Below, piece by piece: positions 1-25,654 of a stretch of DNA of 26,945 bases (the stretch's first letter is position 1; every line of letters begins with the position of its first letter). A program made the translations under genes and the position numbers. The stretch covers positions 1 to 26,945 of the IMG/VR virus record IMGVR_UViG_3300042516_001420, one strand, 5' to 3'. The notes under the pieces were generated by a model. That model worked only from the letters and a program-made list of their open reading frames with translations, searched no databases and was not told the origin of the DNA. Source of the DNA: a virus.

Positions 1-958
1 CATAGTTATTTGCAACATATAGCATCTTGTCGCACAGGTCATCAAAATCTGGTTCTGCCCATTCACCAGCATTTTCGTACAGTCCGAACATCTTATGTGT
101 ACCCCATCTAAAATTAAGAGGTACAGACATGTCAGCAAACTCTGTACATGCCAGAGCATTTGTGCAAATGGTTGGAATTCCTTTTCCAATTCCTTGGAAT
201 GGTATATTTCCCCAACCTTCACCGCTCGTTGGGTAAATCAGGCAGTCTGCCATGTCATAAATCTCGCCCAATCCTTCATGTGAAACTTCATCGTCAATAA
301 CCTGAATCTGTCGGTGTTTGAGCGGATACATTGTTCCATCTCTATAGATTCTTCCGTCAGGCTCTCCATTTGATTTAAAGATCAAACGGTAATTGTCATT
401 GCCCTCAAATAATTTTAAGAAAGCATCTACCGCCATTTGGGAGTTCTTACGACTGGAAGGTGAGCCAATGGATAGGAATGTAAATGTAGAATGAGGCGTT
501 CTCAATTTGGGATAATAAATCTTCGGGTCAACACCAAGCTTAAACTCATAAACGGGTTTATAAACCCCTGATTGAACAAACACCTTCCGCATCGCTTCGG
601 TACATGTCCATATCTCATCCATCTTGTTACACAGTTCAACCCAATGGTTTGGCAATCGGTTTGTTTCCCAGAAGGTGTAGCCAACGCTATACATCCGTGA
701 CCGTACAAATGCCTCCGGCACGGAATGATTGATTACAATCTCATCGGTGCAATCATCCTTTTCGTAATAACCAACTCCCAAACCTTCAAGAGCAGCCATT
801 TCAGGTGGCATTTGAATTCGACCAATATGCCTCCAGTCGGCGGGTTTACTTCTTCGAATCGGCAATCCACTCGTTCCGATAAAATCCCATAAGCGATCAG
901 GTGTGTAGCCGTAGCCTTCACTAAATTTTGGCACTTGGTTGTCAGACCAAACTATCAT
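1..958 (-). CDS. GT4-like glycosyltransferase (incomplete, runs off the window)
   Basis: About 319 residues are visible and the C-terminus lies beyond position 1. The frame is open throughout and starts at an ATG at 958, inside the last codons of the polymerase gene (17-base overlap), with a GAAAGGG-type ribosome binding site upstream. The protein has the GT-B glycosyltransferase layout. A hinge strand FLSIGSPSSRKN is followed by a helix (QMAVDAFLKLF), and the nucleotide-sugar site has the shape EGWGNIPFQGIGKGIPTICT, with the glutamate and the G-x-P turn typical of family GT4. Such enzymes move a sugar from a nucleotide donor to an acceptor. In phages the acceptor can be DNA, a virion protein or a host glycan, and nothing here decides which. 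The lack of a signal peptide suggests a cytoplasmic enzyme. Family is fairly sure; substrate is unknown. Confidence 0.8.
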   Translation of the reverse strand, partial: MIVWSDNQVPKFSEGYGYTPDRLWDFIGTSGLPIRRSKPADWRHIGRIQMPPEMAALEGLGVGYYEKDDCTDEIVINHSVPEAFVRSRMYSVGYTFWETNRLPNHWVELCNKMDEIWTCTEAMRKVFVQSGVYKPVYEFKLGVDPKIYYPKLRTPHSTFTFLSIGSPSSRKNSQMAVDAFLKLFEGNDNYRLIFKSNGEPDGRIYRDGTMYPLKHRQIQVIDDEVSHEGLGEIYDMADCLIYPTSGEGWGNIPFQGIGKGIPTICTNALACTEFADMSVPLNFRWGTHKMFGLYENAGEWAEPDFDDLCDKMLYVANNY

Positions 959-3900
959 TCTTTAACCCTTTCATCTCGATGTATTTTTCGACAGGAATCA
1001 TCGCCCTTTCATTCTCAATTTTGTAAGAGTCAAGTCTTGTCAATGTTTTCTTATCTTCAATTTTAGCAAGCTTCGCAGCAAACCATTGATCCTTTTTGAT
1101 GATATTTTTCAACTTACCGAACACACCAGGAAATACCACGATCTTAAAGATTTGTTTTCCATCCCAGCCATAGACATTTGCCATATCTTTGCCAGTCTGT
1201 GTCGTAAAGAATCTCGTGTGCAAGATATACAAAAGAGTCTTTTCCGAATCCACATCTCCCAGACCCGATGGGTACAGCCACGCATAGTCATGCTCTAATC
1301 CCTTGGCTCTCAACTGCGTGAACTTATGCAAGGGGGTATCAATATAATTAAAAGCGTCACTGAAAGCATGAAGCGTTCTGTCACCGATAAGGGCATAGAG
1401 ATAGTCTCTTACGGCCACCTCTGTGTCACGCTCTGCAAAGACCGTAGCGGAGCCTGAAGCGTCTTCAAATTCAATACGGAGGTATTGTGGTGTTTTCTTA
1501 GTTGAACGCACCACAGCCCTAACCAGCGTCAATGGAGAGGTGATTTCATGGAAGTTAGCAATGTCTTCTACGAAGTCATCCATTTCATTCTTATCTGAAG
1601 CAATAGTGATAGGGAATCCTAGAATGGGTAGATAGTATCTTTCGTGCTCAAATTGAGACTCAAACCCCAAAGATTTGAAAGCTCCTACCTTTTCTAAGTT
1701 TTCTTTAACATTGGATCTTACTGCTCTCTTTGAACATTTGTTTATGAATTCATCGTATGAGTTAAATGGTCTCTTATCAATAATTTCTTGAATAGCGGTC
1801 TTACCACAAGCCTGAACATTGCTTAATCCGAAACGGATACCTTCTTCACTGCCCTCTTTGCCGATTGTAAAGAATTCATCTGACTCGTTCACATCAGGAG
1901 GAAGAATCTTAACCCCAAGTCTTTGCGCTTCCATGAGGTAAGCGGTGATCTTATCTGTTGAGTCTTCATTAGATAGAAGTGCCCATGTAAATTCGACAGG
2001 ATAATAAACCTTTAACCACATTGTCTGATACGAGAGCATTGAATAAGCAACAGCATGAGACTTGTTGAACATATAGAGAGCAGCCATTTCAAACTCAGAC
2101 CAAATCTTTTCAGCCTTTTCTTTTGTAATGTATTTGTTATTAACAAACTTCTCTCTGTACTCATCAAATCCGGCAGAGTCTCTCTTCTTACCGATGATTT
2201 TTCTAAGTTTGTCAGCCTCTGACCAAGTAAAATCAGCAAGAAGCACAGCCATTTGCATTAACTGCTCCTGAAAAATTACAGTGCCGTAAGTTTCACGAAG
2301 AATATCTTCAACAAGAGGATGAGGATACTTTGGCTTCTTCTCTCCCTTTTTACATTCAATGTATGTTTTACCTTGTGACAACAATGCACCGGGGCGAACA
2401 AGAGCGTTACTAACCACAAGGTCGTTAAAGTCATCAACGCCCATTCTCTCAATCAAGTTGCGATAAGCAGCGGCATCAGCTTGGAATACACCGACAGTAT
2501 TACCTTCTGCGATATTCTTATACACAGCAGTATCATCTAGGCTCAGTGATTTGTCCGTTACATCTACACCCGTTCTCTCCTTGATCTTACTGATGCAGTC
2601 TTTGATAACAGATACCGTTTTAAGACCAAGTACGTCAATCTTAATAAGACCAACTGCTTCAGCATCTTCCATGTCAAAAGCAGTTACGACAGAGCGAACA
2701 TTGTTATTAACATCTTTTCTTGTCTCAACAGGACATACATCAGTCAATGGAATTGCAGACACAACCATTCCAGCAGCATGAATTCCGGCATTACGAATGC
2801 GACCTTCAAGCCTCTTAGAGAGGTTCGCTACATCTGGATATTTTGAGCAGAAGATTTTGCCCTTTTCAGATGTTTCAAGTTCTTCAAGTGTTTCAAAGTA
2901 TGGAGTGATTGCATTAATCTCCTGAAAAGGCACTTGGTAAACTCTGGAAACATCTTTAACAGCAGATTTAGGTTTGTATGTACCATAAGTTGTGATAGCC
3001 GCTACATTGTCATGTCCCCATCTATCACGAAGATAATTACGAACCTCATGTCTTCTCTTATCTTCAAAGTCCAAGTCAATGTCAGGATAGTCGTTTCTGT
3101 CTGGGTTGATAAAGCGAGCGAATAGCAGGCTGTACTTAATTGGGTCAACCTTTGAAATATCCAAAAGGAAAGCAAGGATGCTCCCGCCAACTGAACCACG
3201 ACCTGTACCACGACCAATATTATTTTGATCGGCCCATTTAACCAAGTCCCAAACGATTAGGAAGTAGTCTGCAAAACCGAGTTGCTTAATGATTCCGAGT
3301 TCCTCATCAAGTCTGTCCTTGTACTCTTGACCATACCCTCTGTTTTGCAATTCAAACTCGGTTATCTCACGCAGGTATTCATTTGAGTCAAACATCTTTG
3401 AATACTTGGGAAGAAGATTACTTCTCTTAACAATTCTCGCAGAACACTTTTCTGCAACTTCAATTGTGTTTTCTAAGTAAGAAGTATTGGCGTATCCGGC
3501 TTCTTCAAACCAAGAATACACGGTGTCTGCATTAGCGATGTACGGATTGATTTCATCAAACCTAAGACTTCTGTTGGGGTACATCTTATTAATCTTGTCA
3601 ACGATTGAAACATGAGGATCGTTGATTATCCCGCTATTTTCTTTTGCCAATCTTTCTTCAGCAGCACCTAGACTTGGGTACTGTGAAACCATTAGAAGAA
3701 CTTCTTCACAGCCCCTGTCTTCATGTGTAGGGAAATGGCAGTCTGCTGTTGCAACAACTTTCTTGCCAAAGTGTTCTGCTAAGTCAATTAATCCATCATT
3801 AATATGCTTTGGATTCCACGCTTGGATTTCAAAATAGAAATCATCTTTGAATATCTTTACAAATCTTTCTGATAACTGCTCTGCTCGTGCATAGTTCTTA

Positions 3901-4343
3901 TTATCAATTGCTTTGGATATCGCACTACCCATGCACCCAGATAGAGCAACAATGTCGTTGTCTACCAGTTCCTCTAAAAGATCAAAATCCATTCTTGGCT
4001 TGTAATAGAAGTTATTAGTCCAGCCCATCTTTGAGGCCTTGAACAACTTCTGCAAACCCTCGTTGTTCTTTGCAAGAAGAATGAGGTGATACCTTTCATG
4101 TTTCCCATCTCCGTCTGAATTGACCGATGGAACAAAGTAGGCTTCAATGCCAAACAATGGTCGCACATCTTGCTTATCGCAAGCATCTTGGAATTTTAAA
4201 ACTCCACCCATTGTTCCGTGATCAGTGATTGCTGAGGCAAACTGACCATTGCGACTTGAGGTCTTTGCAATCTCTTCTGGAGTTGACATACCGTCAAGCA
4301 ATGAATACTCAGAGTGACAGTGTAAGTGAACGAAATTAGTCAT
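942..4343 (-). CDS. dnaE: DNA polymerase III alpha subunit (DnaE-type, C family)
   Basis: The 1133-residue protein is about as long as bacterial DnaE and would be the phage replicative polymerase. An N-terminal PHP domain (about 1-230) keeps the metal-binding pattern: H6-x-H8, D41-H42, E67, H86, C137 and D201-x-H203. The palm holds GRGTGRGSVGGS (about 378-389), the catalytic PDIDLDF motif with D421 and D423, and the third aspartate at D570 in IKIDVLGLK. The fingers carry FNKSHAVAY (about 759-767). A helix-hairpin-helix region lies near 835-890, and an OB-type segment follows near 935-970. The start overlaps the end of the HAD gene by 8 bases (ATGACTAA), so the two are probably translated together. 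No separate DnaQ-type proofreading gene is seen in the window. The intact PHP site may supply a 3'-5' exonuclease, as known for mycobacterial DnaE1; this is inference. Confidence 0.97.
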   Translation of the reverse strand: MTNFVHLHCHSEYSLLDGMSTPEEIAKTSSRNGQFASAITDHGTMGGVLKFQDACDKQDVRPLFGIEAYFVPSVNSDGDGKHERYHLILLAKNNEGLQKLFKASKMGWTNNFYYKPRMDFDLLEELVDNDIVALSGCMGSAISKAIDNKNYARAEQLSERFVKIFKDDFYFEIQAWNPKHINDGLIDLAEHFGKKVVATADCHFPTHEDRGCEEVLLMVSQYPSLGAAEERLAKENSGIINDPHVSIVDKINKMYPNRSLRFDEINPYIANADTVYSWFEEAGYANTSYLENTIEVAEKCSARIVKRSNLLPKYSKMFDSNEYLREITEFELQNRGYGQEYKDRLDEELGIIKQLGFADYFLIVWDLVKWADQNNIGRGTGRGSVGGSILAFLLDISKVDPIKYSLLFARFINPDRNDYPDIDLDFEDKRRHEVRNYLRDRWGHDNVAAITTYGTYKPKSAVKDVSRVYQVPFQEINAITPYFETLEELETSEKGKIFCSKYPDVANLSKRLEGRIRNAGIHAAGMVVSAIPLTDVCPVETRKDVNNNVRSVVTAFDMEDAEAVGLIKIDVLGLKTVSVIKDCISKIKERTGVDVTDKSLSLDDTAVYKNIAEGNTVGVFQADAAAYRNLIERMGVDDFNDLVVSNALVRPGALLSQGKTYIECKKGEKKPKYPHPLVEDILRETYGTVIFQEQLMQMAVLLADFTWSEADKLRKIIGKKRDSAGFDEYREKFVNNKYITKEKAEKIWSEFEMAALYMFNKSHAVAYSMLSYQTMWLKVYYPVEFTWALLSNEDSTDKITAYLMEAQRLGVKILPPDVNESDEFFTIGKEGSEEGIRFGLSNVQACGKTAIQEIIDKRPFNSYDEFINKCSKRAVRSNVKENLEKVGAFKSLGFESQFEHERYYLPILGFPITIASDKNEMDDFVEDIANFHEITSPLTLVRAVVRSTKKTPQYLRIEFEDASGSATVFAERDTEVAVRDYLYALIGDRTLHAFSDAFNYIDTPLHKFTQLRAKGLEHDYAWLYPSGLGDVDSEKTLLYILHTRFFTTQTGKDMANVYGWDGKQIFKIVVFPGVFGKLKNIIKKDQWFAAKLAKIEDKKTLTRLDSYKIENERAMIPVEKYIEMKGLKNDSLV

Positions 4344-5581: not shown

Positions 5582-6526
5582 TTATATGTGTATTTGTTTG
5601 TTTGTTAATGTATTTGTAATTTCCTCATCCGACATTTCACCTGCGTCCTTTCGGTCTTCAGGCAATTTGACGGTATAGAGTTCCTTACCTCTACAGGCAT
5701 TTAGTATATCACTCCTCATCTGATTTCCAGCATCATCATTGTCGGAAAAGATAATAATTTTGTCAAAATATCTTCTCAACATTTTGTACTGAAAATCGGA
5801 GATTTTGGAGCCTAGAGTCGCTACAACATTGGGGTAGCCAGCTTGATGAATAAACATTGCATCAACACTTCCTTCCACAACTATGCATGAATCATACTGT
5901 TTTGCATTTTGTATGTTGAATAAAACATCTGCTCTTTTGAAACCCCTGTTATACAGGTAGCGAGGTTCTTGTTCAGAACTTGTCGCACGACCTATGAATC
6001 CAACTAACTTGTATTGAGCATCCCTAACCGGAATGACAACTCTTTCTTTTGCTTTTGAATATCCGATTTCGAAATGTTCAAGAGTTTCATAACACAACCC
6101 TCTTTCCACAAAGGTTGACAGATCCTCAAGGCTTGCATCATCATCGTAATCAATTTCAATATCTGAAATATTTAACTGATCTTTCTCGCCCTCTTCGTAA
6201 TTGAGTTCTCTATCAATCACATTTTGAAGAGCGACATGATCAAGTTTTACATCCTTAGTAAAAGGCTTGCCAGTCACCTGCTTATACAGTTGACGAAAGT
6301 TACCTTTTTTACCGCATGATGGATTGAAGCATTGCCATAAGCCTGTTTTTATGTTTATATAAAATGCAGGGCTGTGCATGTTCTTATGAAAAGGGCAAAA
6401 GATATTTAACTCATTCATACCCTCACTTGCGATATGGATATTGTAGTTATCAAATAACTCTCTAATATTTTTTTCAAGGTTACTTGATGAAATGTAACTG
6501 GAATTTGAATATGTCTGTTTTTGCAT
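5582..6526 (-). CDS. DNA primase with CHC2 zinc finger and TOPRIM domain
   Basis: The 314-residue protein would make RNA primers for replication. The zinc finger is CPFH...C....C with C44, H47, C66 and C71. A TOPRIM catalytic domain follows, with E218 in IVVEGSVDAM and the metal pair D262/D264 in FSDNDDAG. It has no helicase domain; helicase is a separate gene just upstream, so the two likely act together. The first ATG (6526) is the only possible start, because an in-frame TAA lies four codons upstream and later starts would cut into the zinc domain. The ribosome binding site is weak. The first 47 bases overlap the preceding small gene. Confidence 0.93.
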   Translation of the reverse strand: MQKQTYSNSSYISSSNLEKNIRELFDNYNIHIASEGMNELNIFCPFHKNMHSPAFYINIKTGLWQCFNPSCGKKGNFRQLYKQVTGKPFTKDVKLDHVALQNVIDRELNYEEGEKDQLNISDIEIDYDDDASLEDLSTFVERGLCYETLEHFEIGYSKAKERVVIPVRDAQYKLVGFIGRATSSEQEPRYLYNRGFKRADVLFNIQNAKQYDSCIVVEGSVDAMFIHQAGYPNVVATLGSKISDFQYKMLRRYFDKIIIFSDNDDAGNQMRSDILNACRGKELYTVKLPEDRKDAGEMSDEEITNTLTNKQIHI

Positions 6527-6656
6527 TGTAATCCGTTACTAATTTTGTTCTAGAGAAGTTTCCGTGAACAGCCTTCCATTCATCCTCAATCCAAGGTCTA
6601 AGCCTTGCAATAGTCTCAATGTCTTGCGCTTCTCCAGCAATATATCTCTTAGGCAT
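6480..6656 (-). CDS. 58-residue protein of unknown function between helicase and primase
   Basis: A small frame begins MPKRYIAGEAQDIETIARL at an ATG that shares one base with the helicase stop (TAATG) and runs 47 bases into the primase gene. It is mixed-charge and probably helical, rich in W, R and E near the middle (RPWIEDEWKAVHG), without a signal peptide or cysteine cluster. The stop-start coupling is typical of real translationally coupled genes. Without this frame the helicase-primase gap would be about 130 bases, unusual for this compact genome. I do not recognise the family. A role with helicase or primase is only a guess from position. Confidence 0.6.
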   Translation of the reverse strand: MPKRYIAGEAQDIETIARLRPWIEDEWKAVHGNFSRTKLVTDYNAKTDIFKFQLHFIK

Positions 6657-7873
6657 TATAGTTCCCATTCTTCTGTCCACTTTCCTGTTTCTAAATTCCA
6701 TCTTAGATAAAATCCAAAATGGGTTGATCTTCTTACTTTTCTTGATACGACTTGAAAAACATCCGAGTTGTACTCACGATGAATTGCAAGCACTAGGTCT
6801 GCGTCATACGCTAATTGCTTACTCCATGCAACTTCTTCCAATTCAGGTGGTCGCTCAGAGTGCCCCTCATTCATTGTTACAGCAGCAACATCGATAATGG
6901 GAATACCATTCTTCACAGCAATTCTTTTAAAAGCTTTTGACAGGTTCTTAGCCTTTTCAGTTTCATTCTTTGCACCACTGGCATCATCAAACAAGCCGTG
7001 ATAGTCAAGGATAACCATATCGGGATGATATTGATCAATCTTTGCCTGAACCATGTTTTGGTCTGCTGTCTCAAGCCCCTCTGATGTTACGAGATAAATA
7101 GGATGCTTTCCCTCAAAAGTTCTTTCAGCCCATCTCTCGTAATTGTCAACGATACTTTTATTCGCTTTTACAAGGTCCGTGTTGGTAAAGTGCCCCTCAC
7201 CATTGTTTAACAATGTATCAAGCCTCTGCCCCTCTTGCTGTTTGTTCATCTCAAGAGAGATGATTAAAGGCCTGTATCCCGCTCTCCAAGCATTGGCAGC
7301 AAATAGTCTCGCAATAAAACTTTTACCAACACCTGTCCAACCTAGAAGAACAACAAAGTCACCGGGTTGCCAACCACCAAAAGACTTATCAAGAACATTA
7401 ATTCCGCTAGGAATTCCTGGGATATCTCTAGACTCCTGCATTGAACGATTTCTTAAATCTCCTGCACGATCTTTCCACTCACTAACTAAGTCAGTATCTT
7501 TAAGACTGCTAGAAAACTTGTAGAGTTGAGAAGTTGATTGCATAAGATATGCCATCGCTTCTTTTGGTCCCATATCCTTAAGCATCCCGTGAGCTTTTGA
7601 GATGATCTGTCTAGTTTGATAAGACAGAGACTCCCTCTTTGCTTCGTCAATGTAATAAGTCAAAGGCTCAGGAGTATTGATAAATTCAAAATCCGGATAG
7701 TGATGCTTTACAGTATCTTTAGATGGTGTCTTTTTATATTCATCGTAGTGTTGCACTACAAAGTTCCAGATGTCCCTGTATTCAACAAAGACATTTTCAA
7801 TGCCCTCGTTGACAGAGGTTACATAATCTCCTGAATTAAGTAGGGAATTGATAACCCTCAATTCATAATTCAT
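6656..7873 (-). CDS. Replicative DnaB-type DNA helicase
   Basis: The 405-residue protein (from the ATG at 7873) is a RecA-fold hexameric helicase that unwinds DNA at the fork. An N-terminal helical part (about 1-130) is followed by the ATPase core, with Walker A GWTGVGKS (lysine near 184), a conserved glutamate in LIISLEM, and Walker B MVILDYHG (aspartate near 290). A C-terminal segment (WSKQLAYDADLVLAIHRE, then VSRKVRRSTHFGF) supplies the arginine-rich interface. A longer frame opens with TTG at 7936, but that start lacks support. The ATG chosen overlaps the preceding stop by 11 bases, giving a natural coupled start. The zinc primase is downstream. Confidence 0.93.
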   Translation of the reverse strand: MNYELRVINSLLNSGDYVTSVNEGIENVFVEYRDIWNFVVQHYDEYKKTPSKDTVKHHYPDFEFINTPEPLTYYIDEAKRESLSYQTRQIISKAHGMLKDMGPKEAMAYLMQSTSQLYKFSSSLKDTDLVSEWKDRAGDLRNRSMQESRDIPGIPSGINVLDKSFGGWQPGDFVVLLGWTGVGKSFIARLFAANAWRAGYRPLIISLEMNKQQEGQRLDTLLNNGEGHFTNTDLVKANKSIVDNYERWAERTFEGKHPIYLVTSEGLETADQNMVQAKIDQYHPDMVILDYHGLFDDASGAKNETEKAKNLSKAFKRIAVKNGIPIIDVAAVTMNEGHSERPPELEEVAWSKQLAYDADLVLAIHREYNSDVFQVVSRKVRRSTHFGFYLRWNLETGKWTEEWEL

Positions 7874-8171
7874 CTGCCATTCGCTTTCTTGTCTCTTCCA
7901 ATATTGATTGGAATCTGCTTTCTGATTTGCTATCAAACTTTACTTTATCAATATATGTCTTAGATTCCACAGCAAAATCAAAAAGAAGTACTGGACCATT
8001 TTTTGATTTTATAAAGGATTCAATTGCCTTGAACAAAAGTTCTGACTCATAGAATTCCGATATAGCCTTTGCAACAGGTTCCTGTCTTGGGGAATCTGGA
8101 ATGAATAGTTTACTGTGCTTTTTGCAACAGTCCTCGAAGTACTGAATCGTCTGTTCTCCAGTTACTTTCAT
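7863..8171 (-). CDS. 102-residue protein of unknown function upstream of the helicase
   Basis: The protein starts MKVTGEQTIQYFEDCCKKH and is mostly charged and helical, with two adjacent cysteines (CC) near residue 15 and a central hydrophobic strand (GPVLLFDFAVES). Its start lies 62 bases inside the WhiB-like gene, and its end overlaps the helicase start by 11 bases, so it belongs to the same operon. Phage helicase loaders are often encoded next to the helicase and are poorly conserved. This makes a loader a possible role, but no motif shows it. Confidence is moderate that the frame is expressed, low for any function. Confidence 0.6.
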   Translation of the reverse strand: MKVTGEQTIQYFEDCCKKHSKLFIPDSPRQEPVAKAISEFYESELLFKAIESFIKSKNGPVLLFDFAVESKTYIDKVKFDSKSESRFQSILEETRKRMADEL

Positions 8172-10446: not shown

Positions 10447-10893
10447 TTACAAGTTAGGTCTTTTCAACCTGTTTTCTATAGGTTTGTTTTGAGCATAATT
10501 TCTTTTTTTAGTATGAGGCTTTGTGTTCTTAACAGTGTTCCTCATCTTCTCTTTTCTCTCTGCCGATGCCCTATGTCCTTCTTTATGAATTGCACTATGC
10601 TCAGAGTGAGTACATAGAAAAAGATTATCTAATCTATTGTCAGTTTTTATCTCATTAATGTGATGAACAGTTTCCCATGGCTCTAGATAGCGGCCAATGT
10701 ACTCTTCCATCACAATACGATGCTCATATGCATATCCACGAATATTGCGAGGGTGATCAGTTTTTAGAACTCTGACATAGCCTTTATCATCAATGTATTT
10801 TCCACCATTGTAATTTGCACTATCTTCACCGGCAGGTGCGCTATCGGACCATTTAACATCTTGTCTCTGAGATGCTAGCCCTCTTTTAGCCAT
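10447..10893 (-). CDS. HNH endonuclease (probably a homing-type mobile gene)
   Basis: The 148-residue protein has a HNH fold: EHRIVMEEYIGRYL, then the H77-H78-I-N80 pair, N86/N90 in TDNRLDNL, and the closing H96-x-x-H99 and H103. An N-terminal strand pair (GKYIDDKGYVRVL) resembles the DNA-recognition part seen in free-standing phage homing endonucleases. The C-terminal tail is very basic. It cuts DNA and may spread itself between phages. It lies exactly between the structural and replication modules, 3 bases after the preceding stop, with only a weak ribosome binding site (GGCGGGA). A packaging role, known for some HNH genes next to terminases, is unlikely this far from the packaging genes. 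Confidence 0.88.
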   Translation of the reverse strand: MAKRGLASQRQDVKWSDSAPAGEDSANYNGGKYIDDKGYVRVLKTDHPRNIRGYAYEHRIVMEEYIGRYLEPWETVHHINEIKTDNRLDNLFLCTHSEHSAIHKEGHRASAERKEKMRNTVKNTKPHTKKRNYAQNKPIENRLKRPNL

Positions 10894-11570: not shown

Positions 11571-11578
11571 ATTATACA
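11571..11578 (-). promoter_or_regulatory. Candidate -10 promoter for a leaderless transcript
   Basis: TGTATAAT contains a perfect -10 hexamer that overlaps the TAA stop of the fibre gene. The ATG of the next gene follows after exactly 8 bases. That spacing would place the transcript start at or next to the ATG, the arrangement seen for leaderless genes in Actinobacteria. No -35 at a good distance is seen. Confidence 0.4.
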
Positions 11579-13101
11579 TCCTCTAGGGTCTGCAATCTAA
11601 CTTCAATACTATCCATTTTACTGGCAAGATCTTGAATTTTTTTATCAATTTCTTTAATTGCTTGAACAACTGGTGCAATTAGCTGAGTGTAGTCTAACAT
11701 CTGGAAGGAATCCGGATCGTTTTTATCTGCCATTGACCACAGATTATAGTCACCTACATCTTCAGAAATTAGAGCCTCTTGAACATTTTGCGCTGTAAAA
11801 CCTGCTCGCAATCTTGAGCCAATATCCCATTCAAATACATCTTCTTCTTGCTCCTCACCTTCTTTTGCCAATCTTGCTTTTATCACTCTTGGCGCAAGAT
11901 TTGTATACTCAATCGGTTGTAGTTTATTTATAAAAGATAAACCTAAAGGTAATTCTTTTTGATTATCTTTAAATCTTCCATCTGAAGCGGTGAAAAAATT
12001 ATAACTAGCGACAAGATTCCAAGCACTAAATGTAGGTGGAGGACCACCTATAGCTCCAGTATTGTTTCCGCCCCTTGGAAAACCACCAGCAAAAAAAACT
12101 ACGTTAGCATCTACAGTTCCATCAGTTATATTAACATAGTTAAGTGCTGCGCTTGTGTCGTCTCTACTTTCAAGCTGTAGTCGCCCACGAGTTCTTTGCT
12201 CCCCAGTAGTGTCAATTCTTTCTGTTGCAAGATATACTATGCCATTCGAGTAAGAAGTGCCCAGCGCACGTCTAGCATCCATATAAATAGCATTTGTCTG
12301 ATACACAACTCGTTCTCGAACAGAAGTATCTGCTAAGTTACCTGTGCCTACAAAGTATCCAGAGTGATACAGTGCGGTTGATCCTATCTCAAACACAGCG
12401 AATGCATTAAGGGAACCGTCATACCATTCATTTCTATAACTAGCATTTGTCAATGTTGTTGTGTAGATATTTGAGCCAGAAACCAACCTTGATCTTAAAA
12501 CTCCACCGGAACTTACTCGAAAAGGCGCAGAAGTAAATGTTGTAGCACCAAGCCACATATTTCCATTGTTATCGACACGGAATGAGCCAGATCCTACTGT
12601 TGCAACGATATCAATCGTGCCAGCCTGGATAGAGCCTCTAATTATAGAGTTATTAAAAACAGACGAACCAGAATGGCTAATTGCCCATCCAGCAGTACCA
12701 GAATCATTAATCACACCGTTTGCATGGAATGTGCCATTAAAAGATCCACTCCTGATAATATTATTAACAAGAACAACATTTGAACTTAATTCATTTGCAC
12801 TTATTGTTCCAGCAACTATTTCTCGTGCAGTAATTGCATTAGCCTGAACACGGATACCTTGGGGATTTAAAACCCTTTCCTCAACTGCACTGACAATAAA
12901 GGACTTAAAACTTCTTATATTATTATCTTCAAAAACCCTTCTTGGAGAATTAGGTGCAGCAACAGGAAAAGGAACAAAATCGAAAATAGAATACTTTTTA
13001 TAATCAATTAGTGATGATGTCAGACCATCATGATTATGACCAACATCTCTTCTAAAAACCACTTGGTTTTCATTGATATTTATTTTTGGGTCAATAGCCA
13101 T
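11572..13101 (-). CDS. Tail fibre with C-terminal S74 self-cleaving chaperone domain
   Basis: The 509-residue protein opens with a GHNHDG motif common in phage fibres. A stretch at about 80-190 (ITAREIVAGTISANEL, then TAGWAI and FNNSIIRGSIQAGTIDI) resembles the C-terminal fibre part of lambda gpJ-like proteins. A beta-rich shaft or receptor-binding region follows (190-360). The C-terminus from 373 is a peptidase S74 intramolecular chaperone domain. It has the SDGRFK signature with S373 and K378, then GFTAQNVQEAL, a DYTQL segment, and a final coiled coil (IKEIDKKIQDLASKM). In this family the domain helps three chains trimerise and then cuts itself off before the serine, here between A372 and S373. 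It probably forms a trimeric tail fibre. The start (TAATG) is coupled to the tail-tip gene and preceded by AAGGAAGGT. Confidence 0.9.
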   Translation of the reverse strand: MAIDPKININENQVVFRRDVGHNHDGLTSSLIDYKKYSIFDFVPFPVAAPNSPRRVFEDNNIRSFKSFIVSAVEERVLNPQGIRVQANAITAREIVAGTISANELSSNVVLVNNIIRSGSFNGTFHANGVINDSGTAGWAISHSGSSVFNNSIIRGSIQAGTIDIVATVGSGSFRVDNNGNMWLGATTFTSAPFRVSSGGVLRSRLVSGSNIYTTTLTNASYRNEWYDGSLNAFAVFEIGSTALYHSGYFVGTGNLADTSVRERVVYQTNAIYMDARRALGTSYSNGIVYLATERIDTTGEQRTRGRLQLESRDDTSAALNYVNITDGTVDANVVFFAGGFPRGGNNTGAIGGPPPTFSAWNLVASYNFFTASDGRFKDNQKELPLGLSFINKLQPIEYTNLAPRVIKARLAKEGEEQEEDVFEWDIGSRLRAGFTAQNVQEALISEDVGDYNLWSMADKNDPDSFQMLDYTQLIAPVVQAIKEIDKKIQDLASKMDSIEVRLQTLEDV

Positions 13102-16100
13102 TAATTTACCTTCCTTAATGTCAAAGATTGAGACAGTGATTCTCCATATGATATATCCTGAGAAACCACCCAGTAGTCATTATTAATTATATCAAGAGAA
13201 TCCAATGAGGATATACGAATTTTATCACCAAGTTGAATCTTTGGCACACACATTGTATTAATGTTTATAATAGGAACAGGGTCAGCCATCTTTTCAATTA
13301 AAAAACTAGCCATTCTTTGGGCATGGTCTGTGCTTGTTATATATTGACTTTCTATTGTTATCTCTTTTAATCCATATTTGCGAATACTGTCAGAGAGGCT
13401 CTCTTTCTGCTCAGTCACCCTCTCTGCCGATTCCGTAACCACAACTGGAACTCCGTAAATACCTGTTCCATATGAAATATTGCTTCGAGGGTCTTCTCCT
13501 TGTATATAAATATGATTGTCGTACCCAATATTCGCAGAAGCTGACAGGATTAATTTTGCGGTGTATGGTGTACTCTCAAATTTAAGAACATTTAAACTAT
13601 CCGGTTCATCATCAATAATCCCTGTTGAGATAGGGGGCAAAATAGAAACTGCTGGTTTCTTATCGTATGTAATTTCATAATATCTAGCCTCCCTAATATG
13701 GGTGTCAACAGGTACTTCATCTAAAATTGGAGTTCCAAACTTTCCTCTTTCAAGATTTAAGAAACTAGATACTGATTTTGAATTGTATTTAACAATTTCA
13801 GTTTGAAGAACACTATTGGCATCTAATTTACTAAAGGCTAAGTACCCAGAGTTTGCAAACACCGGTCTTGTGGTTGTTGAAACAAGCATTCCAGTATCGG
13901 AAGACATCAGTGTTGCCGTAAGGCGAACTGCCCCAAGAGATGACTTGTCTTCAGCAGTCCATAGCTGCTGTGGTTCTGTTGACAATCTTGCTACGGATGC
14001 AACCTTTACAATTACCTTGTTGGCTTGCAATTGAACATTTAAACTTCCATCAATTATGTTTGTAACGTCACTAAATGTATATTGAACATTTGAATGCTGA
14101 TCAATAGATGATTCATAAAATCTGTTGTAATGTTCATAGCGGCCCATGTTTTCTTCATCAATATAAAAACGCCCAAGGTCGGCTAATGATATATTATCTA
14201 TCGCGGCTCTCAAGTGTTGATCCTCTGAATAGAGGAACGGAAACTTAGGGATATATTGAACAGTTGATGCAATATATCTATCCAGTATTTGTTCACTTGA
14301 TAAAGTGGTTTTATATATAATAAATTCATCAATAGACATCTCTCTAGTGACCGCTGGTGCGTTCTCTGTGAAAGCAGTAAAAGAAGCACCACGACCACCG
14401 ATTGTGATATCAGAAGTATTTGTAACTATATTGCCAACAATTTGCTTTTCATTCTCAAGCCTGCCATTCAGGTAGTATGAAAGTGTTTTTGAGCCAGAAT
14501 CATAAGAGACAGCAATATGATGAAAATCTTGTGATGATAAAGCAGTGTTTGATTGAACAAATTCAGATGATGGAGTATCGGTTCTTATTTTGAAGCCATG
14601 AGTGCCACTAGAGACATGAAAAAATTCAAAACCAGATGTAGGGCTGCTATTTGCCCATGATGATAAATACTGCCCATCACCGTTGTATCCACCTTGATTA
14701 AATCTAGCAATGACCTCAAATGAAAAATCTGATTCAGTCAAGGCAATTGATGAATGACTTGGTATTCTTGCATATGCGCCATCAATTAAGAAGATACCCC
14801 TATTCTCAGGATCAGACTGGTAACTCGTAGAATAGTTCAGTTGCGTGTTTGGATCTAGGTAAGCATCGTTCTGATGATGATTCTCTTGAATAGTATTTAT
14901 GGAATAAGTAGATGGGACTACGGATGTGAGATTTCTAGAACCAAGGCCATCTCTTGCAACAATAGGTCTTACATTGTTTTTAGAAAGAAGTGTTTTTACA
15001 TACTGATCAGTAGATACATTATAAATATAAGAATGTAAAGACATTGAAAAGTTAGAATCACCAGGACCATGGAAAAATTCAATTCTTAACTTATAAGGAA
15101 CACCGGCTTGTAAGTTCATATATATTGACTGAATTGAAACAGCTGGACTTTCCATTGTTGACTGACCAACTAGCAAATCATCTATGTATATTCTTGCTCC
15201 TCCATTATTTATGTCAAGAATAATTGCTTGATTTGCATCAGTTACGCTAGGAATATAGTAACCATCCACTACCCCGTTGTAATATTTAGTAAATGTCTCA
15301 GATGTAATATTGCTAGAAAATGTATGATTAACAAGTTTAAGAGCATCATTTTCAGAGCCAATTATCGATGTGGAGAGGACGACATCATCTGGAGCTGAGT
15401 AAAGTTCAACTCCTTTAATTCGATCTTCAAGAGATATAAATTTTTCTAATACATTTGATTTGATTGTTTTATATGTTGATTCAAAACCAGATCTCATACC
15501 CCATAGGCGAATTCTAAGACCGGGCTGAAGAGAGGTTAGATTGCCGTTGTTATCAATTGAGTCCTCACTAAAAGAATATCTGGCAACTGCTCCAAGTTCT
15601 CTTGTTCCACTTGAGTACGGAAGTATCTGTTTATAATCGGCTCTTGGAAAGTTTCTCATCATAAGCAGATGAAGAACTGCATCACCAACTGTTTTGTCCT
15701 CTAACAAGAAACCATTTTCCAATTGCTTCTCTAGAAGGAATTTTGTCCAATCACTCGCATTTATTGAAACCGTCATGTCATTAGAATTTGATGACCATTC
15801 ATCGACATAAAATGTCCCCATTGGTACATATTCATATGGGTCAAATAAAACAGTAGAGCCGACAGCATGCTCTACTGCATCCGTTTCTAAAAGGCCTCTA
15901 CGACTTATTGACAGGGTATTGGTACTGCTCACATGGCTACATAAAACAATTTCTCTATTATCCTTTTCTGGATTAATTATGGCAATAAAATTATTATTAA
16001 CGCCCCCTTCTGGAAAAATTGATGAATCATCAACTGACATTGTTGTTGCAGAGTTGGAAAATGTGCTACGTAATTTTGTTTCCAGAGTCACTGCATTAGT

Positions 16101-17036
16101 TTTTTTAATTCTCCATCCTGTTGATATATTTATTTTCAAGTCCTTTTTCATATATTTTCCAAATAATGAAGAATTATTAAATATGTTCCAATCTTTATTG
16201 GTATTATCAAGTTTTATTGTTACTTTCGGGCTTTGACTACCTCCAATTGGAACACTTGACTCATGAATATCTCTGGCTCTAGAAACATTATAATCAACAA
16301 CATAGTCAGTTATGTCATACTCGTAGATAGGTGACACTTCATGTATTCTCGCATAATCAAGACCATTTTTTGTTGATATGACAGTAAGTTCAATTCTTAC
16401 AGCATCAAATTGAGCCGCTACTGCGTTGTCACTTTTTAGATAAATATCTTTATAATATTCGTCATCTTCAAGAGTGATTGTCTTATCCAAGATATTGATG
16501 AGAGTTTCGCTTTCAACTTTTATGCGGAAAGACTTAACTTGACCATAATATTCAGATGTAGTAATTCTTATTTTATTGACCTTGCGTGGTTGAAAAGCAA
16601 TTGTGACAATTGGGGATGAAGCAAAAGAACCATTAGCCAAACTTCTAGTTCTAGACCACCATCCAAATTCAAAATCTCCTTCAAGATTATTGTCTTTATC
16701 CACGCTTGTTGGCATACAGTGCCAACTTCCATCGGCTGTAATGATCTTGCCATTTTTATCTAGTGCGTCTGTAACTGCCCATGTAAAAGACTGTCTTTCG
16801 TAACCGTTAATCATTTGCTGTTCAGAAAAGTAAAAACCAAGAGAACCCTCTGACGAAACAGTATGGGCATCAGTATTTGTTATTGCAACATTTCCAGTCA
16901 GTACTGGGTTTAAATCTACATGGCGACTATCTAATAAATCTATAGTTATTTTTGGTTTTACATTTTGTGCAGGGGCATTAATTGCATTATTAAAATAATT
17001 AGATAATGTTACTCCATATGTATTTTTAGTTAACAT
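13101..17036 (-). CDS. Large tail-tip/adhesin protein with PA14-like and LamG-like domains
   Basis: This 1311-residue protein is likely the tail-tip or host-contact protein. N-terminal beta domains (1-300) include VVDYNVSRARDIHES. Next is a module at about 318-398 ending in the pattern SISRRGLLETDAVEHAVGS, which recurs in looser form at about 1036-1118 (LNLERGKFGT). Between the two copies lie a PA14-like domain (about 570-690; YYNGVVDGYY, IYIDDLLVGQS, AGVPYKLRIEFFHG) and a LamG/concanavalin-like domain (about 740-925; DFSFEVIARF, HHIAVSYDSGSKTLSYYLNG, MSIDEFIIYKT). Both domain types commonly bind sugars. The C-terminal part (1240-1311; IQLGDKIRISS, YWVVSQDIS) resembles siphovirus tail-hub ends. 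It probably recognises cell-surface glycans. The start shares one base with the upstream stop (TAATG), with GAGGT before it. Confidence 0.85.
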   Translation of the reverse strand: MLTKNTYGVTLSNYFNNAINAPAQNVKPKITIDLLDSRHVDLNPVLTGNVAITNTDAHTVSSEGSLGFYFSEQQMINGYERQSFTWAVTDALDKNGKIITADGSWHCMPTSVDKDNNLEGDFEFGWWSRTRSLANGSFASSPIVTIAFQPRKVNKIRITTSEYYGQVKSFRIKVESETLINILDKTITLEDDEYYKDIYLKSDNAVAAQFDAVRIELTVISTKNGLDYARIHEVSPIYEYDITDYVVDYNVSRARDIHESSVPIGGSQSPKVTIKLDNTNKDWNIFNNSSLFGKYMKKDLKINISTGWRIKKTNAVTLETKLRSTFSNSATTMSVDDSSIFPEGGVNNNFIAIINPEKDNREIVLCSHVSSTNTLSISRRGLLETDAVEHAVGSTVLFDPYEYVPMGTFYVDEWSSNSNDMTVSINASDWTKFLLEKQLENGFLLEDKTVGDAVLHLLMMRNFPRADYKQILPYSSGTRELGAVARYSFSEDSIDNNGNLTSLQPGLRIRLWGMRSGFESTYKTIKSNVLEKFISLEDRIKGVELYSAPDDVVLSTSIIGSENDALKLVNHTFSSNITSETFTKYYNGVVDGYYIPSVTDANQAIILDINNGGARIYIDDLLVGQSTMESPAVSIQSIYMNLQAGVPYKLRIEFFHGPGDSNFSMSLHSYIYNVSTDQYVKTLLSKNNVRPIVARDGLGSRNLTSVVPSTYSINTIQENHHQNDAYLDPNTQLNYSTSYQSDPENRGIFLIDGAYARIPSHSSIALTESDFSFEVIARFNQGGYNGDGQYLSSWANSSPTSGFEFFHVSSGTHGFKIRTDTPSSEFVQSNTALSSQDFHHIAVSYDSGSKTLSYYLNGRLENEKQIVGNIVTNTSDITIGGRGASFTAFTENAPAVTREMSIDEFIIYKTTLSSEQILDRYIASTVQYIPKFPFLYSEDQHLRAAIDNISLADLGRFYIDEENMGRYEHYNRFYESSIDQHSNVQYTFSDVTNIIDGSLNVQLQANKVIVKVASVARLSTEPQQLWTAEDKSSLGAVRLTATLMSSDTGMLVSTTTRPVFANSGYLAFSKLDANSVLQTEIVKYNSKSVSSFLNLERGKFGTPILDEVPVDTHIREARYYEITYDKKPAVSILPPISTGIIDDEPDSLNVLKFESTPYTAKLILSASANIGYDNHIYIQGEDPRSNISYGTGIYGVPVVVTESAERVTEQKESLSDSIRKYGLKEITIESQYITSTDHAQRMASFLIEKMADPVPIININTMCVPKIQLGDKIRISSLDSLDIINNDYWVVSQDISYGESLSQSLTLRKVN

Positions 17037-18025
17037 TAGACCTCTTCTAGAACCAAACTGCAGTCATACAAGTATACACCTTCTGCTATATATCTTCTAA
17101 TCAGGCTTTCTGAATAGGATCTGATAAAGACTTGATATGTCGTTTCTGTATACGGTGTTAGCCCAGATTCATTCTGATTTAGTATTTTCAACTCATGAAT
17201 GTCGGGGTCTTCCGCTACCGTGTGTAAGAAGTCTCTGGCATTTCTTTGATCAACCGTATCTTCCATGCCGTTTGGCAGCATCGTCCAGTTGAATGAGAAA
17301 GTCTTGCGACCAGATGTTGATGCTCTTTTATAATATCTATTACGCCTATTATTCCAATTTATAATCTCTGTATTTATTGGGGATAGTGAAATATCAAATT
17401 GTCGATTATGATTAGTTAAAGGTTTGTCATCTAAAATAACTAAAGATCGAATAGATGTTTGATCAATATAATTTGGAGAAAATCTTATAGGGGGTTTTAC
17501 AATCGCCCTCAATCCAAAAGACAATGAATTATTAATCAAAGTAATAAGAGCAGTGGATACGCCAGCGCTAGAGGCAATGCTTGAAGATGAAAGTGCCAAT
17601 GCTATCCTGATAGCGCGCGGAGAAGATAAGGATGAGATTGAGACACTACTTGAAGCAGTAGTTATTCTTTCTGCATCTGCAGTGTTTGTTAATAATACTG
17701 ATGAAGTTGAGCTAGAAAATGCAATTTTACTAGAATTAGAGGATACATCTGCAGATATGTGTATAGAGGAAAGAATATTAAGAATCTCTACACTAGAAGG
17801 TTCCTTAGTAAGCGACAAGAACACTTCAGACTGCGCATTGGCAAACTTAATAGAATTTATTTGATTAGATAAAGATATTGCAATAGATGATGAAGCAAAA
17901 GCTATTTTAGATGATGCTGCCGAAGCGCTTGATTCAATATAAATATCAGAACTGCCGAGAATACCACCTCTGTAGAAATCAATATCTGATAATTCCGGCC
18001 CTATGCTGTAATATTCATCTGCCAT
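17036..18025 (-). CDS. Tail protein with 20-residue repeat domain fused to a duplicated tail domain
   Basis: This 329-residue protein has two parts. Residues about 15-174 are serine-, alanine- and isoleucine-rich and form consecutive units of exactly 20 residues. Residues about 190-329 are clearly paralogous to the whole protein encoded just upstream. They share HNR, K-x-F-x-F, LPN, DxxVD-x-R, RDFL, SYxExLIRRxI and a final YD, at nearly equal spacing. The tail domain probably builds a ring or tip element. The repeat part may form a stacked beta structure projecting from it. Position after the tape measure is where siphoviruses encode distal tail proteins, but the family is not recognised. The start shares TAATG with the upstream stop and follows GGTGAG. 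Confidence 0.8.
   Translation of the reverse strand: MADEYYSIGPELSDIDFYRGGILGSSDIYIESSASAASSKIAFASSSIAISLSNQINSIKFANAQSEVFLSLTKEPSSVEILNILSSIHISADVSSNSSKIAFSSSTSSVLLTNTADAERITTASSSVSISSLSSPRAIRIALALSSSSIASSAGVSTALITLINNSLSFGLRAIVKPPIRFSPNYIDQTSIRSLVILDDKPLTNHNRQFDISLSPINTEIINWNNRRNRYYKRASTSGRKTFSFNWTMLPNGMEDTVDQRNARDFLHTVAEDPDIHELKILNQNESGLTPYTETTYQVFIRSYSESLIRRYIAEGVYLYDCSLVLEEV
17504..17983 (-). repeat. Eight consecutive 60-bp (20-residue) protein repeats, first one degenerate
   Basis: Aligning residues 15-174 of the tail protein at a period of 20 gives no gaps. The sixth column is K40, K60, E80, K100, R120, R140, L160, and the next column is I, F, I, I, I, I, I. Column 12 is serine in six of the seven clear units (S46, S66, S86, S106, S126, S146), with aliphatic residues mostly at columns 14 and 16. 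The DNA units have diverged strongly, so the repeats are old and kept at protein level. Residues 15-34 form a weaker eighth unit. Confidence 0.88.
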
Positions 18026-18444
18026 TATTGCTCACCAAGATCAATTGTAACATCGTAGTAAGAACAAGCCTCTCCAATTTCTCTTCTGATTAATCTTTCA
18101 GTATATGAATTAATATAACAAATATAAGTTTCATACTCCTCAGTAGGAGACATTTTTACGCTTAGAGTTACAGTTCCTTTTGTTAAGGATAATGTATTGA
18201 GAAAATCACGCCCAGCTCTACCGTCAACGGTCTTGTCAGTTGTATTTGGCAAATATGTAAAAGAAAAATTAAATGATTTTTTATTTTTACGAATATATCT
18301 ACGGATTACACCTCTTGCAAGTTCTACATCTGCGCCTGACTGCTCAACCGTAACGGATACTTTTCTATTATGCTCCGTTATCTCAGTTCCATTGATTTTG
18401 GCAATATGAAGCAATCCGGTTTGTTGATTCTGAATCACCGCCAT
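18025..18444 (-). CDS. Small tail protein, paralog of the next gene's C-terminal domain
   Basis: The 139-residue beta-rich protein carries HNRKVSV, SFNFSFTYLPN, DKTVDGRAGRDFL and INSYTERLIRREIGEACSYYD. The same landmarks occur in the downstream protein at matching distances: K56 to L65 and K241 to L250 are both 9 apart, L65 to R79 and L250 to R264 both 14, and S113 to D131 and S303 to D321 both 18. It directly follows the tape measure gene, the usual place for the distal tail (Dit-like) protein, and may form a ring at the tube end. It is shorter than most Dit proteins, so this role is inferred. A ribosome binding site (AGAGGT) precedes the coupled start. Confidence 0.75.
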   Translation of the reverse strand: MAVIQNQQTGLLHIAKINGTEITEHNRKVSVTVEQSGADVELARGVIRRYIRKNKKSFNFSFTYLPNTTDKTVDGRAGRDFLNTLSLTKGTVTLSVKMSPTEEYETYICYINSYTERLIRREIGEACSYYDVTIDLGEQ

Positions 18445-25057: not shown

Positions 25058-25654
25058 TTAGATTTGATCAATAATCTTGCCATACTCGTAGCCAACATCG
25101 TCAGATGCTGGAAGAATACGGAACGAGACAGCGAAGACCGTAGCCTCTGCTCTCTTCATGCTGATTGTTGAAGATTCCATAGAGATTGCTCTCTTAGTTC
25201 TGAACTTACGAGACTTGGTTGTTGACGCATCTGAGCCAGGTGCGTTACCTTCAATCTGTACTGCTCTTTCGTATGGATATACGCTTTGTCCACCGAACTT
25301 AAATGTTCTGGTGTTAGCGCCATCAAGGGTGTTGACAATATCGGTGCTTGCCGAGTCTGTGTTCGAGACATCGGAGTTATAGCTCCATGCAACTGCCAAG
25401 TTCTGAAGTGTTCCTTCTGCCATGGTTGTCTTAACCATAACTTTTACCTTGGACTGGATGACTTTTGCAGCGTCTCCAAACTGATCAACTTCAATGTCAA
25501 CCATGTCTGGTTCCCAAGAAATTTCTACACCGCCCTGTGTGTATCCCACATGACGGAGGGCATCGAAGTCAGTTCCAGTCATTGTCAAGTTGGATGCACC
25601 AACTCTAACAACGGCTTCACCAACTACGATATTCGCGGCTGTTGTATCTGCCAT
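25058..25654 (-). CDS. Major tail protein (tail tube subunit)
   Basis: The 198-residue protein has the look of siphovirus tube subunits: an early beta part (VGEAVVRVGASNLTMTG), then YTQGGVEISWEPDMVDIEVD and FGDAAKVIQSKVKVMVKTTMAE, which form the conserved tube-protein core. It polymerises into the tail tube around the tape measure protein. It has the best ribosome binding site in the window (AGGAGG, about 9 bases before the ATG) and is followed by a strong terminator, both expected for a very abundant structural protein. Only one such gene and no sheath gene is present, which argues for a non-contractile tail. Confidence 0.9.
   Translation of the reverse strand: MADTTAANIVVGEAVVRVGASNLTMTGTDFDALRHVGYTQGGVEISWEPDMVDIEVDQFGDAAKVIQSKVKVMVKTTMAEGTLQNLAVAWSYNSDVSNTDSASTDIVNTLDGANTRTFKFGGQSVYPYERAVQIEGNAPGSDASTTKSRKFRTKRAISMESSTISMKRAEATVFAVSFRILPASDDVGYEYGKIIDQI

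Follow-up and report, generated by a model that had tools for sequence, protein, structure and literature searches.

Phage parts that serve adsorption are the fastest to change, and most of the known changes swap whole domains. In the tail tip of phage T5 an extra tube-like ring, p140, arose by gene duplication and lies between the tube and the rings of the distal tail protein (pb9), where it is encircled by a collar (p132) that anchors the side fibres (PMC10038345). Rings with additional parts have also been described in lactococcal and Bacillus siphophages, whose evoDits are distal-tail ring proteins with extra parts that bear on host adsorption, namely carbohydrate-binding modules (PMC10688798, PMC9128512). 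In the mycobacteriophages Douge, Claus, Corndog and Mysterious a hexameric distal-tail ring lies between the tube and a trimeric hub, and variable accessory parts surround a conserved core; the accessible text of the two accounts presents these parts as separate proteins or galectin/CBM domains and describes no repeat arm (PMC13033339, PMC13252515). A shaft of short repeated beta strands is found in the pentameric delta fibre on the head of Orsay virus, whose beta-bracelet, built from an 8-residue unit (L/V)x2Vx4V, was first described as a new repeat fold (PMC7565637).

The locus described here lies in a window of 26,945 bases, which is the whole of an IMG/VR record from an uncultured virus of bacteria and possibly a genome fragment. 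Like p140, its 329-aa protein would form a duplicated extra ring next to the distal-tail ring, at the base of appendages that presumably project outward; unlike the decoration-less p140, which derives from the tube protein (PMC10038345), it duplicates the small gene that follows the tape measure and has its appendage fused to it as a repeat arm. The likeness to the evoDits and to the mycobacteriophage tips lies in a ring protein or conserved core with extra parts, but the part added here is an N-terminal array of 20-residue units in which no binding module was recognised. The array also differs from the Orsay bracelet in the length of its unit and in its position on a tail ring. Accessory domains on ring proteins and repeats in fibres are both known already; a distal-tail paralogue with a modular arm of 0 to 28 units appears to be new, and no published description of such an arm was found in the literature searched, which lay mostly outside subscription journals.

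Gene order and the ring domain

On the minus strand the tail genes follow one another in the order major tail-like, tape measure, 139-aa, 329-aa, 1311-aa (LamG) and then tail-fibre/spike (S74), and the order from the tape measure to the 1311-aa protein is kept in the window and all near relatives (Table 1). The 139-aa protein is a probable distal-tail or tube-end ring, and the 1311-aa protein a probable baseplate hub or tail-associated protein. In the hub-like protein a LamG-like lectin domain was found at residues 754-917, together with a weak PA14-like match at residues 590-667, and these two regions are candidates for carbohydrate binding at the tail tip.

Table 1. Tail genes of the window and the parts of the repeat-arm protein
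Feature	Coordinates	Strand	Evidence
Gene of the 329-aa repeat-arm tail-tip protein	17036..18025	-	ORF; gene order common to all near relatives
N-terminal cap, residues 1-19	17969..18025	-	conserved [IV]DF[YF] motif
Arm, residues 20-179, eight gap-free 20-residue units	17489..17968	-	autocorrelation, unit identity, family consensus
C-terminal ring domain, residues 180-329, tail-tube/distal-tail fold	17039..17488	-	32% identity to the 139-aa protein, AlphaFold2, Foldseek
First copy, 139-aa minor tail protein, PHROG 1194	18025..18444	-	phrog_1194 E 3.1e-6; Streptomyces/Rhodococcus phage minor tail proteins
1311-aa hub-like protein with LamG-like domain	13101..17036	-	phrog_10359 (minor tail protein), phrog_1887 (tail protein), Laminin_G_3 E 1e-14
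Tape measure protein, 1940 aa	18444..24266	-	13 tape-measure PHROGs, PhageMin_Tail
Ig-domain/major tail protein-like gene	25058-25654	-	
Tail-fibre/spike protein with S74 chaperone domain	11572-13101	-	

Over its last 150 residues the 329-aa protein shares 32% identity with the 139-aa protein, which marks its gene as a duplicate to which an N-terminal region was added. Neither protein had a match in Pfam, and the 329-aa protein had none among the PHROGs, though its C-terminal domain is the paralogue of a member of PHROG 1194, a family that contains the 139-aa first copy and is represented in Streptomyces phages Faust, BillNye and Peebs. The nearest cultured relatives of the 139-aa protein come from phages that infect Streptomyces and Rhodococcus. 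Unlike the window, the phages Faust and Peebs and the Rhodococcus phage NiceHouse carry a single copy of the small gene, directly followed by a large minor tail gene, and lack the repeat arm; this indicates that the window's relatives gained the arm gene as an addition.

AlphaFold2 models of the ring domain, computed for the window protein with 37 relatives, had a pLDDT of mostly 70-93 and showed a tail-tube beta-sandwich with a helix. Foldseek gave the domain matches of probability 1.00 among tube, distal-tail and initiator proteins, including those of pyocin R2, PVC/AFP and phages Milano, 812, Sf11 and 80alpha (best E against the PDB 6.8e-3 for the window and 1.5e-4 for the relative L052), and among the predicted viral structures of BFVD, where the best E was 1.4e-9, it matched a small protein of Streptomyces phage Yaboi. 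We therefore regard the C-terminal domain with high confidence as a tail-tip ring protein. A sequence-only reading of the window had joined the repeats to a tail-ring domain, and the matches to tail-tube, distal-tail and baseplate-initiator proteins bear it out.

The 20-residue repeat array

That reading had described seven to eight exact 20-residue repeats at residues 15-174. Over these residues the autocorrelation (BLOSUM62) peaked at lags 60, 20 and 40, with z of 5.6, 5.45 and 4.5, which is the signal at 20 that a self-alignment had been expected to give. None of 2000 composition-preserving shuffles reached the observed value at any lag (top shuffle z 4.3), ruling out chance or composition as the source of the period, and the C-terminal 150 residues gave no periodic signal in the same test. 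The repeat was thus confirmed as real, and its spacing is indeed exact and gap-free, with a period that beat 2000 of 2000 shuffles; its letters are not exact, the mean pairwise identity of the window's units being 24% (range 5-40%; shuffles 13.2 +/- 1.3%), and the eight units are degenerate in sequence. The register proposed was off by about five residues, a better one across the family being residues 20-179, in which eight gap-free units can be counted and the last is followed at once by the C-terminal domain's conserved I-R-F-S. Columns 6, 7, 14 and 16 of the first description were right and become columns 1, 2, 9 and 11 in the corrected register. The cap residues I15 D16 F17 Y18 ("IDFY") were invariant in alignment A1. 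A plus-strand ORF across the repeat (17553-17864) is taken as a chance ORF.

The repeat had been described as lacking a named phage counterpart, and it was in none of the family libraries searched. For five relatives, neither Pfam nor NCBIfam gave a repeat family at the curated cut-off (the best repeat model, TIGR03807, stayed below it at E 0.059), and no PHROG covered the repeat. There was no match in 50,697 phage records, searched with BLAST, which filters low complexity, and no profile match to the known beta-solenoid repeats of the filamentous haemagglutinin, hexapeptide and pentapeptide kinds. The triple beta-spiral of adenovirus-type shafts is a 15-residue repeat, and it was rejected on the arm's period of 20 and on lag 15 not being among the autocorrelation peaks. 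The beta-bracelet was likewise rejected, the arm's period of 20 standing against a bracelet repeat of 8 residues (PMC7565637).

Unit number and evolution of the arm

Relatives were found through the neighbouring genes and alignments, as the window protein alone retrieved none from viral contigs or phage records. A search of viral contigs with the 139-aa and 1311-aa proteins gave five loci of the same gene order, and alignment-based scans gave 16, 70 and 80 overlapping loci, which together yielded 90 distinct proteins of the second-copy type, among them a few truncated at the 5' end and a lone Rhodococcus copy. Two scans of cellular genomes and a search of plasmids returned no relatives, and phage records queried with the 28-unit relative gave no matches. 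Throughout the family the architecture is a cap ([IV]DF[YF] or xxFYG), n x 20 residues and the ring domain, a cap-like motif preceding the arm in nearly all armed relatives. The unit consensus, from a position table of 314 tiled units, is KIAYASSSISIESSVTVSAT, with hydrophobic columns 2, 4, 9, 11, 15 and 17 and a column 1 that is charged in 91% of the tiled units. The repeat is confined to the arm-ring gene and was absent among the 1014 other ORFs of these loci.

It had been suggested that the number of units could vary between related phages and set a length or reach. The variation is there, from 0 to about 28 in whole units: 0 units (166-171 aa; L071, L083, L087 and L088), about 4 (248 aa), 6 (291 aa), 8 (329-333 aa, the window's class), 9 (352-367 aa, the commonest class), 13 (434 aa), 14 (451 aa), 18 (534-537 aa), about 20 (599 aa) and about 28 (738 aa). 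In L043 and L031 the spacing is exactly 20 across all 18 units, and in L021 a run of 21 consecutive units is followed by a 43-residue step. Over all distinct length classes the quantisation of arm length was only moderate because some lineages carry indels of 2-4 residues; period 20 scored best among periods 8-40, with R = 0.55 and p about 0.014. The cleaner proof of change by whole units is therefore a close clade whose members share one cap and have nearly identical last units, in which L100 has 9, L052 has 13 and L043 has 18 units and members differ by whole units only.

That unit number sets reach is no more than a possibility. There was no trend with the tape measure, complete ORFs of about 1870-2320 aa occurring with 0, 4, 8, 9, 13, 18 and 28 units, and the idea that unit number mirrors tail length was dropped; nor did unit number track hub length, the hubs being mostly about 1300 aa beside 0 to 28 units. 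In the closest relatives (L003:179-9001, L006:478-7587 and L007:361-7593) the tape-measure ORFs are much longer and carry long inserts; that of L003 has 2940 aa, compared with 1940 aa for the window.

A tree of the ring domains set all the second copies apart by a branch with support 95 and required at least 14 changes in unit number. Forms with 0 units were among its deepest branches, the deep order being unsure since some branches are long. These 0-unit lineages retain the ring domain, which shows that the arm is an accessory to ring assembly and is not needed for the ring. Among pairs whose ring domains are 60-95% identical the arm was less conserved than the C-terminal domain in 85-100% (pairs not being independent), as in one pair with 92% identity in the ring and 63% in the arm. 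L006 and L007 share 96-97% identity in each of the two flanking genes, yet their arms diverge from about residue 61 to 180 (45-70% DNA identity); residues 121-180 of L007 match L003 at 90-97% identity, while the flanking genes of L003 reach only about 75%. An arm segment of this kind between divergent flanks indicates that part of the arm was exchanged by recombination. The fast evolution of the arm could reflect relaxed constraint instead of host-driven change, and the 9 units held by a large clade despite wide sequence divergence suggest a constraint on length, of whatever kind.

Two departures from the common layout were seen. In L104 (4724-10602, plus strand) the small first copy is separated from the arm-ring gene by four extra genes of about 220, 120, 220 and 280 aa, an arrangement that other relatives do not share. 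The 1039-aa protein of L114 (7762-10878, plus strand) has about 740 residues N-terminal to the cap, which fits a distal, exposed N-terminus. In these a non-repeat stretch of about 230 residues is followed by a second kind of 20-residue repeat (RTASATGTGSQSASAIKKKL type, phrog_23524) and by more units that resemble those of the arm. This extension is possibly a distal receptor-binding part. A related extension occurs in L085, and phage records queried with the extensions of L114 and L085 gave no matches.

Structure and possible role of the arm

With 37 relatives in the alignment, AlphaFold2 modelled the window arm at a pLDDT of about 30-48 (residues 1-190 mostly below 50), with strands that recur every 20 residues at 28-32, 48-52, 68-72 and on to 148-152. 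The 13-unit arm of L052 was modelled with two strands of about 8 residues per unit at a pLDDT of 50-62 over most units. A Foldseek search of the arm against the PDB and predicted viral structures gave no confident match. A beta-solenoid or stacked beta fibre had been suggested from the sequence: two in-register strands per 20 residues in two relatives, at low pLDDT of about 40 and 50-60, weakly favour beta structure, and the solenoid found no matching PDB fold. AlphaFold2 has been reported to yield false solenoids from repeat sequences (PMC11795689), and we therefore claim no solenoid for the arm, while holding that it is probably a folded beta-rich structure. Pairing of opposite charges at column 1 of adjacent units was rejected as a sign of stacked coils; it looked strong under a crude register (124 opposite pairs against 98.9 +/- 6.5) and came to z 1.4-1.7 after correct tiling and removal of close relatives.

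Taking these results together, we lean towards reading the gene as a duplicated tail-tip ring with a modular, beta-rich, host-contacting arm. The small gene, probably for a distal-tail or tube-end ring, was duplicated, and its copy would be an extra tail-tip ring protein with an N-terminal arm. Judged by its position and computed fold, the C-terminal domain would assemble into a ring that separates the tail tube from the hub, possibly as an additional ring of the kind that p140 forms beside the distal-tail ring of T5 (PMC10038345). The eight units would make an elongated arm on this ring, projecting outward with the conserved cap at its end, and the arm may reach for or grip the host surface during adsorption. 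Its length is set by whole units gained, lost or swapped by recombination, as the changes in unit number and the one exchange show. That the arm is an external host-contacting element, with unit number tuning its reach, we rate at even chances.

The conserved N-terminal cap, as if docking on a partner, and the 9 units held in a large clade while arm sequences diverge, as for a fixed surface to be spanned, would both suit a structural belt stretched along the tube, the ring or the hub, which would stabilise the tip without touching the host itself. We consider such a belt rather unlikely, since no fixed distance fits arms of 0 to 28 units beside hubs of mostly about 1300 aa, ring domains with 0 units persist, and tape-measure length is not tracked. 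The serine content of residues 15-174 (29%), the low AlphaFold2 confidence and the low identity between units would agree with a serine-rich linker that is intrinsically disordered, serves perhaps as a flexible spacer, and owes its periodicity to duplications in the past. Drifting linkers usually lose register, whereas here strict gap-free spacing of 20 runs over up to 18-21 consecutive units, the hydrophobic columns and the charged column 1 are kept in diverged units, and in-register beta strands are predicted in two relatives; the linker is accordingly improbable.

A specific form of the favoured host-contacting arm, and not one exclusive of it, is that the arms come together, for instance in threes, as true fibres with a repeat fold of their own, one comparable to triple beta-spirals or beta-bracelets but built on a 20-residue unit. 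A poor monomer model would be expected of an obligate oligomer, and viral fibre shafts typically show short strands in which hydrophobic residues alternate (PMC7565637). Six copies normally make up a distal-tail ring (PMC13252515), a number that offers no direct route to a single threefold fibre, and we put the association forward only tentatively. Similarly doubtful, if possible, is the fuller proposal that the unit is a new repeat fold forming a homo-oligomeric beta fibre on the duplicated ring, with length steps of one unit and a recombined middle that follow changes in the host surface.

The 20-residue repeat could provide a new fold for fibres. Across the 57 dereplicated ring domains the arm changes in countable 20-residue steps while the ring that carries it stays fixed, which opens the influence of arm length on adsorption to direct testing. 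The repeat arm is also a recognisable annotation signature for tail-tip genes in a large phage group that had no sequenced isolate in the collections searched. Elsewhere in the window an HNH endonuclease, perhaps a homing endonuclease, is encoded at 10447-10893 (minus strand) between the tail genes and the replication genes, and the latter include a phage-encoded bacterial-type DNA polymerase III alpha, a primase and a DnaB-like helicase (942-4343, 5582-6526 and 6656-7936, minus strand).
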